Origin: Nocardioides marmorisolisilvae
GTDB taxonomy: Bacteria > Actinomycetota > Actinomycetes > Propionibacteriales > Nocardioidaceae
Length of the DNA stretch: 64,000 nucleotides
Direction of reading: 5' to 3'
NCBI RefSeq assembly: GCF_003725775.1
Contig: NZ_RJSG01000002.1
Span: 434,001 to 498,000, forward strand
Shown: in pieces, positions 8,734 through 14,416 of the stretch
How the letters are laid out: each line of letters begins with the position of its first letter
How positions within the stretch are numbered: the stretch's first letter is position 1
Notes under the pieces: generated by a model
Database searches by the model: none
Told to the model about the DNA's origin: nothing
What the model saw: the letters and a program-made list of their open reading frames with translations, nothing else
Program-made: the position numbers and the translations under genes

Positions 8734-9066
8734 TCAGTCGTCGTCCGGCCACCTCCTGAGCAGGACGATGCCGTCGAAGACCTCGATCCGCTCGAGCAGG
8801 GGGCTCAGCTCGATGCTCGCGTAGCGGTCGGGCGAATCCTTCACGCCGGTGCGCTTCCCGAACAGGTCATCTGCTTCGTCGAACAGGAGGATGGCGCCGC
8901 CTTTCTCGGCAGCGTCAAAGAGCCTGCGGAGGTTCTTCTCGGTCTCACCGATGTACTTGCTCACCACGGCGCTCAGGTCGATTCGGTAGACATCCGCGTC
9001 GATGGTCAGCGCACCGTCGTCCAGAAGTCGGGCGATGACCGCTTCCCGGTCGTCCTCCTCGCTCAC
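8734..9066 (-). CDS. Truncated AAA+ ATPase module without Walker A
   Basis: A 110-residue protein starting at GTG 9066, whose start overlaps the stop of the CHAT gene in a GTGA junction, so it is translated by coupling. Residues 24-75 match the part of FtsH/CDC48-like AAA+ domains between Walker A and the arginine finger: [20 protein letters not shown] followed by Walker [15 protein letters not shown]. The protein then stops soon after [20 protein letters not shown], where intact homologues continue with the sensor-1 Asn. There is no P-loop GxxxxGK[ST], so ATP binding alone is unlikely. It may be a decayed remnant or a deliberate adaptor. See findings. Confidence 0.75.
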
Positions 9067-11498
9067 CAGCCCGCTCCGAAGCTGAGCAGCGGCACCACCT
9101 CGTCGGTCGACGCGCACACCTGAGCGAGCGCGTCGGCGGGCGCTGTTCCTGCGCCCACCAACCGGTGCCACGAGGCGAACACCTCGCAGGCCAGCTCGTC
9201 AGCGAGTAGGGCGGGGGACGAGATCACCGTCCGCGCTCCCGCGTGCAGCCAGGCGGCGGTCATGCCGACCGATTCCTCGCCGTGCAGGACCGTGACCCGG
9301 CCGAGGTCGCAGGCGGAGAGCACGACGAGCTCCGGCGTACGGGGGAGCAGGTCGACGTCGTGGCCGAACCAGGGTCCGTCGGCGAGCTCGATCGCGGAGA
9401 ACAGCGGGTGGTCGCCCGGGTGCAGGCCGTGGCCGGCGACGTGGAAGAGGTCGACCTGGGAGGCGAGCCAGCCGACGCGGGCCGAGTCCGCGGTGTCCCC
9501 GGAGAGCACCTGGGCCGTGGGCCAGGTGCCGGCCGAGCGTTGGATCTCCTCCTCGGCGCGTTCGAGCCGGGGGCCGGCGACGAACCCGGCGATCCGGGGC
9601 GGGACCGCCTTCACCGCGGTCTGCTCGACCCAGCGCGTCGCCGAGGTCGGGATGGTGAGCGGGCGACCGATCAGCCCGGGCAGGCAGGTCCACGGAGTGC
9701 CGGCCAGCATGGCGGAGGGTGTCAGCACCAGGCGTCGGTAGCCGATCGTCGCGAGCAGCGGCCGGACCAGGACGTCGGCCAGCGCGGAGAGATCGGTGCG
9801 CAGCGACGCCCGCACCGGAGCGGCCAGCTCGTCGCTGCGGTGCTGCGCGGCGAAGTCGAGGTCGGCGGCCACGCGGTCGAGCAGCGTGCGGACCGGCTCT
9901 GCCTCGCCGAGCGGGATGATCGCCGCCGAGTCGGTCGTGACGGCGAGCGCGGTCAGCTGGCCGTCGAGGACGATGTGGGCCACCAGGGCTGCGTTGTCCT
10001 CGGCGAGGCGGGCGCGCAGGGCGTCGAGCTCGACGGGCTCGCCGATGGTGCCGGCCGCGGCGAACCACGAGTGCGACCGGATCCGGTCCTTCAGGGCGCG
10101 GACTGCGGCCGCATCCTTGGGATCGGTGACGCGCAGCGCAGTGAGGTCGGCGGCGAGCGCCGGGTCGGGTGGCGGACGCAGGGCGGTCACCCGCGAGGCC
10201 AGGGCGCGCGCCCGCTCCGACCACTCGAAGACGACCTCGGGGGAGCCGTCGTCCATCGCGGCCCGGAGTCCCAGGCGTGCCAGGTGCTGACCGTGGCCGA
10301 CCGACGAGGACTGCAGGTCGAAGCTGCCGAAGGTGGCCTGCCACGTGTGCAGGGCGGAGAGGCCCTGCTGGGCATAGGTGCGGACCCTGGTGGGCTGGCC
10401 CTGCGCGGCTGCCAGCTCGGCCCGCACCTCGCGCGTGAGCAGCCGGGTGGTGACCGGGGAGTACTCGGTGGTCCGCACCTTCGCGATGCGCGTGGATGCG
10501 TCGGCCATGTCGCCGCGGCGGATCGAGAGGCGGGAGGCGTGCAGGGCGAGCCGGTCTGCCTCTTCCCGGTAGCCGGCCTTGCGCAGGACCTCGGCGAGCT
10601 CGTCGGCGTGACGCAACGTCGCGGGTGCCTTGCTGCCGGCCTCGATGTCAGCGACGGTGGCCATCGCCCGTGCGCGCGCAGCCCAGACCTCGCGCTTCTC
10701 GGCCTCGAACCGGCGTGCGGCCTGCAGCGCGATGGCTTTGGCGCGCTCCGGCTCGTCGGCGACCAGCGTCCGGGCGAGGATGAGCTCGCACTCGGCCTGG
10801 AGTCGGCGCAGCTTCTCGGCTCCGTACGCCTCGGCTGCAGCTTCGAGCGCCTCGGCGGCCTCCCGAGCCCGACCCGAGGCGAGCAGCACCTCGGCCCGGT
10901 CCTGCTGGCCGATCGCGCGGTTCACCGGCGAATCGGCGGCGAGGGTCTCGAAGGCCTCGTCCATGCCCCGCATCGCGGCAACCAGGTCGTTGCGCAGGAG
11001 CTCGGCGTAGCCGTTGTTGAAGAGGGCCTTCGCATGACCCATGACGTCGCCCTCGCGCAGCAGCAGCTCTGCGGCTTCTGCCAGGTCTGTCGCTGCTGCG
11101 TTCGGGTCGCGTCGGTCCAGGTGCACCGTCCCGCGGTTCAACAGGGCACGACCGCGGTAGAGCGTTTCACCCGCCAGCGCCTCCAGGGCCCGGTCCAACG
11201 CACCCAGGGCAGCGTTCGGCTCGGCGTTGCGCATGTAGAGCAGGCCGAGCTGCGACTCGGCGAGCCCGGCCGTGAGGGTCTCGATCCCGGTTCGGGTGAG
11301 CACGTCCCTGCACAGCGCGACGGCGCCGGCGTGGTCGCCGGTCTCGGCCATGCTGTACGTCGCGGTGATGTCGAGTCTGCTCAGCAGGTTCTCGTCGTCG
11401 GTCAGGTCCCGAGCCTGGGCGATGATCTCGAGCGCCAAACCCCACTTGCCGGCGTTGACGGCAACGACGGCGTCCTGGTGCAGGGACTCAGCGTCCAC
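9063..11498 (-). CDS. TPR-CHAT caspase-like protease
   Basis: An 811-residue soluble protein. Roughly residues 1-430 are helical tetratricopeptide-type repeats (for example [28 protein letters not shown]), and the C-terminal third is a CHAT domain, a clan CD cysteine protease related to caspases and separase. The catalytic pair is visible as His690 in HVAGHG and Cys730 in LSACDLG. TPRs in such proteins usually sense a partner or ligand. The GTG start follows the subtilase stop by six bases, with GAGGA in between. No signal peptide is seen, so it acts in the cytoplasm. Substrates are unknown; likely candidates are other products of this operon. Confidence 0.9.
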
Positions 11499-11504
11499 GG
11501 GTCC

Positions 11505-13292: not shown

Positions 13293-13301
13293 GACGGAAC
13301 C

Positions 13302-13811
13302 TCAGATCCAGAAGGGAGGGGTGACCAGCGGACGGCTGCCGCTGGGATCCGAGATGAAGGTGAGTCGACATGCACCGGTCGGCGTGACCGGGAACTCGAA
13401 GCGGCCCGAGTCGCTGACCCGGGTCTCGTCGCTGGTGCTGTTCTTGCCCATCGAGGTCAGGTGCACCGTCATCGGCTGGGCCGGGAGCACCCAGCCGTCG
13501 AGGCGGGCCTGACGGGCGCTGCGGGAGATCCGGACCTGGACCCGGAAGCCCGGCCCGAGGTACTCCAGCGACCAGGTGCCGACCTCGTCGGGGGCGCGCA
13601 GCATGGTCACCGAGCGGACGCCGGAGAGCTCCTTGTCCCACTCGACGAGGGTGAGCAGCTCGGCGTCGAGGTCGTTGGTCTCGATGCGGGCGAGCACGCC
13701 CTCGGAAAGGTCCTCGGGCGGCGGGTCGAGCACGTCCCAGAGATCGGAGATCGCGTCGAGGAGCTCGGCGTCCGCTGCGGACTCCTCCGGGGTGAGCGGT
13801 TCGTCAGCCAT
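13302..13811 (-). CDS. Small beta-rich protein with TPPFWI tail, paralogue A
   Basis: A 169-residue protein. Residues 1-60 are acidic and variable. The rest is a conserved module with TWSLEYLGPGFRVQ, RQARLDGW, GRFEFPVTPTGACRLTF and an extreme C terminus VTPPFWI. The GRFEF-x5-G-x2-RLTF pattern resembles a carboxypeptidase-regulatory (transthyretin-like) beta sandwich. Its ATG overlaps the sigma-factor stop by one base (TGATG), so it is coupled to the sigma factor and could be its regulator. Two paralogues lie nearby (14590-15027 and 16239-16583). I do not know a defined function. Confidence 0.8.
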   Translation of the reverse strand: MADEPLTPEESAADAELLDAISDLWDVLDPPPEDLSEGVLARIETNDLDAELLTLVEWDKELSGVRSVTMLRAPDEVGTWSLEYLGPGFRVQVRISRSARQARLDGWVLPAQPMTVHLTSMGKNSTSDETRVSDSGRFEFPVTPTGACRLTFISDPSGSRPLVTPPFWI

Positions 13812-14416
13812 CACACCGCTCCTTCCGCGAGCAGCTCGACGCGCAGCTTGTCGAGGCAACGGGCCCGGGTCGGGCCGATGCTGCCGACCGGCATGTCGAG
13901 GGCGTCGGAGACCTCGGCGTAGTCCGGACGTGGGCCTGCGGCCAGCATCCGGAGCAAGGCCTGGCAGCGCTCGTTGAGCCGGGTCAGGCAGGTGCGGAGT
14001 CGGGCGTGGTCCTCACGGAGCACGACGCCGGCCTCGGGACCCTCCATGCTGGGCAGCGACCAGCCGAGCGAGTCGTCCTCGGTGGCGAGCTCGCGGCGCA
14101 AGTTCTTGCTGATCTTCCAGGCATCACGGCGGGCCGTGGTGCACAGCCAGCCGGCGACCGCCATCGGGTTCGCGATGGTGTCGGCCTTGTCGACGAGGGC
14201 GAGCCAGGTGCTCTGCACGACGTCCTCGGCGCTGGCGCGGTCGAGGCCGGTCGCACGCACGACGTGCCACAGCGTGGGGGAGAGCAGGCGCACCAGCTCG
14301 TCGAGAGCCTCGCGGTCGCCGTCCCGCCAGGCCGTGAAGGCGGCCGCGGACGCGCTCCAGCGCGCGCCCCCCTCGGCGCTCTTCTCGGTGCCGGAACCTT
14401 CGGAAATGGTGACCAC
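13811..14416 (-). CDS. ECF-type RNA polymerase sigma factor
   Basis: A 201-residue sigma-70 family protein of ECF size. Region 2 lies at about residues 20-95 (AFTAWRDGDREALDELVR, then DRASAEDVVQSTWLALV) and region 4 at about 145-195 (LNERCQALLRMLAAGPRPDYAEVSDALDMPVGSIG). The GTG at 14416 is chosen because it is the first start in frame and because the 12-bp box upstream sits at the same distance from it as from the start of paralogue B. It is the first gene of the five-gene operon. No membrane anti-sigma factor is encoded next to it, which is unusual and points to one of the small beta proteins or to proteolysis as the control. Confidence 0.9.
   Translation of the reverse strand: MVTISEGSGTEKSAEGGARWSASAAAFTAWRDGDREALDELVRLLSPTLWHVVRATGLDRASAEDVVQSTWLALVDKADTIANPMAVAGWLCTTARRDAWKISKNLRRELATEDDSLGWSLPSMEGPEAGVVLREDHARLRTCLTRLNERCQALLRMLAAGPRPDYAEVSDALDMPVGSIGPTRARCLDKLRVELLAEGAV

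Follow-up and report, generated by a model that had tools for sequence, protein, structure and literature searches.

The contig NZ_RJSG01000002.1 of Nocardioides marmorisolisilvae encodes, within the 64,000-nucleotide stretch analyzed here (positions 434,001 to 498,000; hereafter the window), a four-gene cassette on the minus strand. An extracytoplasmic function (ECF) sigma factor is followed by a small protein, an S8 subtilase, and a TPR-CHAT protease, with every junction an overlap or a gap of at most 9 bases. The cassette is a conserved sigma-factor neighborhood that has already been noticed; it is neither a chance cluster nor a new kind of system. We favor, with a probability of roughly 0.45, an ECF54-like module in which the small protein would hold the sigma factor inactive in the cytoplasm until it is set free through proteolysis by the TPR-CHAT protease and the subtilase. 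Four observations carry this reading: the genes are conserved together, their catalytic residues are intact, the subtilase bears a tandem peptide array that is held by selection, and the sigma gene is preceded by a predicted promoter motif that is enriched in cassette-bearing genomes.

A sigma factor encoded with two proteases

The first gene (13811..14416, minus strand) begins at a GTG and encodes a 201-amino-acid protein with a sigma70-ECF match in NCBIfam (E 3.9e-14; 52.6 bits against a cut-off of 42.9). This identifies it as an ECF sigma factor, as an ECF54 member should be, and its gene context makes it likely to be ECF54-like. In relatives, too, the sigma gene adjoins that of the small protein. 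Small protein A (169 amino acids; 13302..13811, minus strand) overlaps it by 1 base if it starts at ATG and by 4 if it starts at GTG. After a gap of 9 bases comes the 595-amino-acid subtilase (11505..13292, minus strand; PF00082, E 4.5e-18), whose D293/H346/S552 triad is invariant in 17/17 alignment rows. Six bases further lies the 811-amino-acid TPR-CHAT protease (9063..11498, minus strand; PF12770, E 2.3e-19, with TPR matches in PDB), in which H690 and C730 are invariant in 15/15 rows. No transmembrane-like stretch was found in the sigma factor, the subtilase, the CHAT protease, or small protein A and its paralogues B and C (highest 19-residue Kyte-Doolittle mean, 1.54).

An earlier reading of this DNA, made from its letters alone (the sequence-only reading), had described a five-gene operon with the same order, strand, and spacing (overlaps of 1 and 4 bases, gaps of 6 and 9). 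Its sigma, S8, CHAT, and AAA assignments held in the domain searches, as did its intact subtilase triad and CHAT His/Cys pair. The four genes stand as a conserved cassette, while the fifth, the AAA+ fragment (8734..9066, minus strand), does not belong to it. This piece overlaps the CHAT gene end by 4 bases (GTGA) and matches AAA with E 8e-11, covering only positions 22-96 of 131 in PF00004. As the Walker A part is missing and the piece was found in 0 of 51 other fetched loci (tblastn, E 1e-3; the 51 include five duplicates, as well as several loci that are incomplete or without CHAT), we rejected it as a component and see in it a local remnant. In one relative, a SnoaL-like reading frame, recognized by eye, directly follows CHAT at the corresponding place (L022:3684-4106).

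Conservation of the cassette

The source genome is 3.83 Mb in size. Judged by CHAT and by the small protein, the named relatives closest to it belong to Nocardioides and Marmoricola. Probing a close set of 39 genomes with the small protein gave matches in 16, its own included. The four cassette genes occur in identical order in every one of the 12 loci retrieved from the same genus (L022-L033), with CHAT running off the contig in L029 and L032. This shared order makes the cluster more than chance. The sequence-only reading had staked its proposal on such conservation in related genomes, and on this point it was borne out. Neighbors of the cassette in the window are also kept in these 12 loci, namely an enoyl-CoA hydratase gene in 10 and an ACAD gene in 5.

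Three loci from the same taxonomic order are arranged otherwise. L034 carries S8, sigma, small protein, and CHAT in that sequence; L035 has the sigma/small-protein pair only; L036 has the sigma and small-protein genes with CHAT on the other strand and S8 distant. A CHAT scan of named genomes returned 16 loci, five of which repeat genomes already covered and three of which (L044, L049, L052) are contig-edge pieces. Scored with profiles built partly from these same loci, seven have all four genes in order (L042, L043, L046, L047, L048, L050, L051), comprising 3/4 from Microbacterium, 2/2 from Klenkia, and 2/2 from Rhodococcus. L042 has two subtilases, and L045 lacks one.

In a draw of 396 genomes from the phylum, 24 matched the small-protein profile, the source genome included. 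Of the other 23 loci, all but the three weakest hits (G114, G253, G307) were fetched. The small protein, by which these 20 loci were found, has a sigma factor next to it in 19 loci, CHAT in 14, and a subtilase in 11; four of these subtilases score weakly. One distant genome holds tandem cassette genes in a 19-kb locus (L092: three small proteins, two CHAT proteins, and two subtilases), and L090, from the same genus, is arranged similarly. At L095, L096, L102, and L103, a class A penicillin-binding protein gene adjoins each sigma/small-protein pair; a cytochrome b gene lies near the pair in L095, L096, and L102 (all three loci tested).

A tandem peptide array in the subtilase

The subtilase contains a feature absent from the sequence-only reading. 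Between its N-terminal region and catalytic domain, eight identical NPYNVG hexapeptides stand in tandem (12564..12717, minus strand; detected by TRF). Between neighboring 18-base units there are 15 synonymous differences and 0 non-synonymous ones. Relatives carry other units at the same place (e.g. HPFTSG, HPFAVG, HPLTAG, NPYATG, PFHSPS, PYHESE, PFHGPN, NPFGKT, PFMS, and NPYWKVPSASG), and still others were seen in the phylum draw (PFWVGH, PFWGGH, GYGDGV, PFTSGG, PLYDGH, NPGYQG, ANPAYQ). Arrays reach up to 12 units (L026).

We examined 142 subtilases (the 120 best listed of 995 hits, plus 22 from the loci and the window), of which 109 were readable and 33 could not be anchored. The linker is periodic in 103 of the 109 (shuffle p <=0.01), with periods of 4 to 14; as P0141 and L050 share one linker, this corresponds to 102 of 108 distinct linkers. 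The 103 array proteins use 74 distinct unit spellings. In 64, a proline is directly followed by an aromatic residue; in 17 the unit contains P[LMVI], in 19 one or two residues stand between, and 3 are of other types. P[FYW] occurs 5.88 times per 100 residues in the linkers versus 0.63 elsewhere in those proteins, a ninefold difference. Under another periodicity rule, repeats were found in 17 of 18 unanchored records with an N-terminal half (31 records in all), and in 15 of 19 new records with such a half (54 in all) from a search with the window S8 alone, in which known close relatives were not among the matches listed. One of these 15, P0293, has repeats without P-aromatic.

Arrays are not universal. 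None was seen in the anchored P0128, P0142, P0148, P0150, P0188, and P0241, in P0239, P0270, P0281, P0284, and P0290 under the other rule, or, by eye, in loci L104 and L107. The three other subtilases of the source genome also lack one. As a separate observation, the window subtilase starts with a lysine/alanine-rich tail resembling histone H1 (13209-13289), built from 15-base repeats and matching HC2 below the cut-off. Alignments with most relatives begin only behind this tail, which we therefore regard as not conserved.

Adjacent units were compared in 20 proteins for which DNA was available. They differ at 142.5 of 304.5 synonymous sites versus 21.5 of 1003.5 non-synonymous sites, a ratio of non-synonymous to synonymous divergence (pN/pS) of 0.046. 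Most of the non-synonymous differences are serine or leucine codon paths which leave the peptide unchanged. The units are thus mostly not recent copies, except in L043 and L047, where they are identical in DNA, and the peptide is held by selection. A bolder reading, to which we give somewhat less than even odds, is that the array forms a self-consistent peptide code, respelled between lineages. As a gate of many copies, to be cleaved or docked onto, it would decide when this intracellular subtilase is unleashed to free the sigma factor. The gate may be cut by CHAT, cut by the subtilase, or bound instead of cut.

A serious competitor, which we consider a little more doubtful, is that the array is not a processing site at all. 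Its motif copies would instead form a docking or spacer element bound by the small protein or by the TPRs of CHAT. The ninefold enrichment of P[FYW] in the linkers would suit such an element, as would near-identical units kept in as many as 12 copies. The lack of covariation with the catalytic pocket points the same way: among 48 Microbacterium-type subtilases with 8 changes on the tree, no pocket residue tracking the change from aromatic to aliphatic arrays was among the best-scoring columns, which were mostly fast-evolving N-terminal positions. Self-cleavage at the array residue is accordingly not favored. Two points speak for a processing site over docking. Zymogens are cut between the N-terminal and catalytic domains, and this is where the array sits. 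Further, two subtilases of one locus may bear different units, as in L042 and L092 (the latter with PLYDGH and PFTSGG). The L042 pair shares one CHAT and one small protein, so that at least in L042 the spelling is not set by a single common partner.

The small protein as candidate sigma holder

Small protein A combines a conserved N-terminal stretch, LW..DP.P..L, with a C-terminal domain ending in TPPFWI. The best-conserved positions fall in both parts: D29, P30, P32, and L35 in the first and R103, D105, W107, G136, and R137 (R.D.W and GR) in the second are invariant across 24 rows. Its match to the regulatory-like domain PF13620 (CarboxypepD_reg) reaches 16.1 bits, under the cut-off of 32.3, and the domain library scans gave no match to a peptidase family. 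The truncated UniRef name of a close relative begins 'Carboxypeptida'. According to the accessible part of a 2022 review (PMC8999054), the ECF54 context comprises carboxypeptidase-, subtilase-, and CHAT-domain proteins, and proteolytic control in place of an anti-sigma factor has been proposed. As the only candidate in the cassette, the small protein is likely the 'carboxypeptidase' of that description. Because it matches no peptidase, it is probably no enzyme and could serve as the missing sigma holder. Its position beside a sigma factor in 19 of the 20 phylum-draw loci would suit this role, which the sequence-only reading had guessed. Searching PDB sequences with the small-protein profile gave a best hit of E 0.033, which was not Csx30; whether Csx30 chains are present there was not checked.

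Two paralogues lie beyond the sigma gene on the same strand. Small protein B (14590..15027, its start set at the GTG at 15027 by analogy with relatives) matches A with E 9.1e-39 and has orthologues in L022, L024, and L025; small protein C (16239..16586) matches A with E 1.2e-20. Both keep the C-terminal domain and lack the LW..DP.P..L stretch.

A different division of labor is conceivable, in which the sigma factor is itself the target of the proteases and stays scarce until a signal stops them, the small protein being an adaptor that delivers it to the protease. Two conserved parts would suit an adaptor, and proteolytic control has indeed been put forward for ECF54 in print (PMC8999054, accessible part). 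That proposal assumes that no anti-sigma factor exists, whereas the probable 'carboxypeptidase' is a small protein without a peptidase match. In addition, five loci keep the sigma and small-protein genes with neither protease in the stretch fetched (L035, from the same order, 17 kb; L095, L096, L102, and L103, about 12 kb each). The proteases are therefore not needed beside the pair everywhere, and we consider this division of labor rather unlikely.

Predicted promoter motif and candidate regulon

A predicted sigma-dependent promoter, TGTATCA-N17-CTC, lies 36 nucleotides upstream of the sigma start (14426..14452, minus strand). A second such site in the window, TGTATCA-N16-CTC (15037..15062, minus strand), precedes small protein B and is its predicted promoter; small protein C has no GTATCA in the 220 bases upstream. 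The motif was first spotted by eye and then tested with controls. A first guess at the promoter, a GAAC/CGT consensus, had fit 1 of 27 upstream regions and was rejected.

GTATCA-N15-18-CTC precedes the sigma gene at 21 of 25 loci from the genus, the order, and the named genomes, and at 8 of 19 loci from the phylum draw; the reversed pattern was found at 0 in either set. In most same-genus loci the motif begins 34-44 bases before the assigned sigma start, and it lies further off in others. The whole source genome contains 13 matches versus 3 for the reversed control. For the narrower pattern TGTATCAN15-17CTC, 10 cassette genomes gave 40 matches (one site being counted twice) versus 4 in 10 congeneric genomes in which the small protein has no match, while the reversed control gave 3 and 7, respectively. 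G001 and the cassette-bearing genomes G005, G022, and G023 were left out of the count. Subtracting the 12 in-cassette matches, from which the motif had partly been read, leaves 28 versus 4 (binomial p 2e-5). Some of the 40 sites must be due to chance, and several have no close gene start behind them.

Several families recur behind the motif: a cyclic-nucleotide-binding domain protein (G000, G004, G017), small protein B (G000, G017, G019), and families of 140 (G004, G007, G017), 170 (G000, G016), and 490 amino acids (G004, G008). G004 and G017 are very close and should be weighed as about one genome. The family of ~490 amino acids, present behind the predicted promoter in two genomes (L154:2-1477, L144:3-1493), has no Pfam match. 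Single cases include an M23 peptidase-like protein (G016) and a second CHAT protein with a Trypco1 protein (G006).

In four relatives a sigma-type motif also lies past the CHAT stop codon (L024:4152-4177, minus strand; L025:6923-6948, plus strand; L026:4844-4869, minus strand; L027 near 4870-4900, minus strand). It reads TGTATCA or CGTATCA followed by CTC, at most about 90 bases after the stop, and may drive a short RNA. The space between CHAT and a convergent ACAD gene is 173-189 bases in L024, L025, and L026.

Trypco1 was defined in conflict systems (PMC7159879, as far as its accessible text goes), and its position behind the motif hints at a conflict role. One could accordingly picture a defense or cell-death module, in which the two proteases would be the effectors, harming the cell or an invader, and the sigma factor would do no more than raise their expression. 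The second CHAT protein in the predicted regulon would fit this picture, as would PADLOC matches of the AAA piece to IetA (6.6e-9) and of the subtilase to IetS (0.0049), and the patchy distribution within the genus, where the small protein is matched in 12 of 23 other genomes. Against it, the CHAT and Trypco1 targets come from the single genome G006, and PADLOC gave no match at E 0.1 for CHAT, the sigma factor, or the small proteins. The enoyl-CoA hydratase and ACAD neighbors kept in same-genus loci are also unlike a mobile island. We regard a defense module as improbable.

Proposed mechanism

Returning to release of the sigma factor by proteolysis, we infer binding partners, cleavage targets, and signal in the following scheme. 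The small co-encoded protein would keep the sigma factor inactive in the cytoplasm. CHAT would sense a cytoplasmic signal through its TPR part. The subtilase would be made latent, with its N-terminal domain tethered through the Pro-aromatic array. Once cut within the array, either by CHAT or by its own activity, the subtilase would be free to act, destroy the small protein, and so release the sigma factor. The latter would then act at TGTATCA-N15-17-CTC promoters, driving transcription of its own operon and of a small regulon. Shortened small protein B, with its predicted promoter of this type, could provide feedback, either by occupying the proteases or by restoring inhibition.

Several results weigh against this scheme. 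The cassette is patchily present within the genus, and five loci hold the sigma/small-protein pair with neither protease in the fetched stretch. G003 carries the cassette yet lacks any match to the TGTATCA pattern. The missing pocket covariation does not favor the version in which the subtilase cuts its own array. Finally, the N-terminal domain of the subtilase, by eye beta-alpha-beta-beta-alpha-beta and ending in a conserved L[DE]H, gave no Pfam or PDB profile match to an inhibitory I9 prodomain.

Relation to known systems

The gene set is not new and probably represents the known ECF54 neighborhood. The group traces to Huang 2015 and Casas-Pastor 2021, as told in the accessible part of the review, where the example given is from Geodermatophilus (PMC8999054). 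An ECF sigma factor with subtilase and CHAT genes nearby is common to that description, the window, and all 12 same-genus loci. Klenkia, which carries the full cassette here, is presumably of the same family as Geodermatophilus. In its accessible text, the review makes no mention of an array, a promoter, a regulon, or shortened paralogues (PMC8999054). The sequence-only reading was thus anticipated in its idea of proteolytic sigma control, and the set is more familiar than it had supposed.

By analogy, we would place the cassette beside Csx29-Csx30-CASP-sigma of type III-E Craspase as the closest worked-out parallel. There, the TPR-CHAT protease Csx29 cleaves Csx30, the inhibitor that binds an ECF-like sigma factor (PMC10028731), and the cleavage site varies between orthologues (PMC11106740), both according to the accessible parts of these papers. 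The two systems share a TPR-CHAT protease with a His/Cys pair that is encoded with an ECF-like sigma factor, while the cassette differs in having a second protease, the array-bearing subtilase. The RAMP family PF03787 had 0 matches in the whole source genome, with the control matching 4 of 14 genomes; CRISPR arrays were not searched for.

Two other systems bear comparison. As in IetAS, AAA and subtilase frames occur here in one operon, but the AAA frame is a remnant not found in the loci fetched from relatives, and the subtilase goes with the sigma factor, small protein, and CHAT. No intact AAA+ ATPase partner was found, the fragment being without its Walker A region. A published set of caspase-like proteases beside ECF sigma and TPR genes resembles the cassette, but has other domains (EACC2, DUF1822, and TRADD-N nearby in part). 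Neither 'subtilase' nor 'subtilisin' is used in the paper on it, and of three words there starting with 'chat', the two displayed belong to an author's name.

Within the literature searched, the array-bearing subtilase seems to be new, and so does the predicted promoter together with its candidate regulon. Neither the array nor the TGTATCA promoter turned up among the papers listed, and the original ECF54 descriptions, beyond the reach of the search, may hold parts of them. Until now the ECF54 group has had a name and a conjectured mechanism, and the array and promoter make the old proposal testable. To it we contribute a promoter motif, a candidate regulon, and a candidate holder protein that has perhaps been mistaken for a peptidase, while the subtilase array points to a possible site of control. 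The array offers one short motif in dozens of natural spellings, often with candidate partners encoded in the same operon, so that its recognition can be tested. As a parallel to Csx29-Csx30-sigma without a RAMP effector, the cassette may show what protease-sigma switches do alone.

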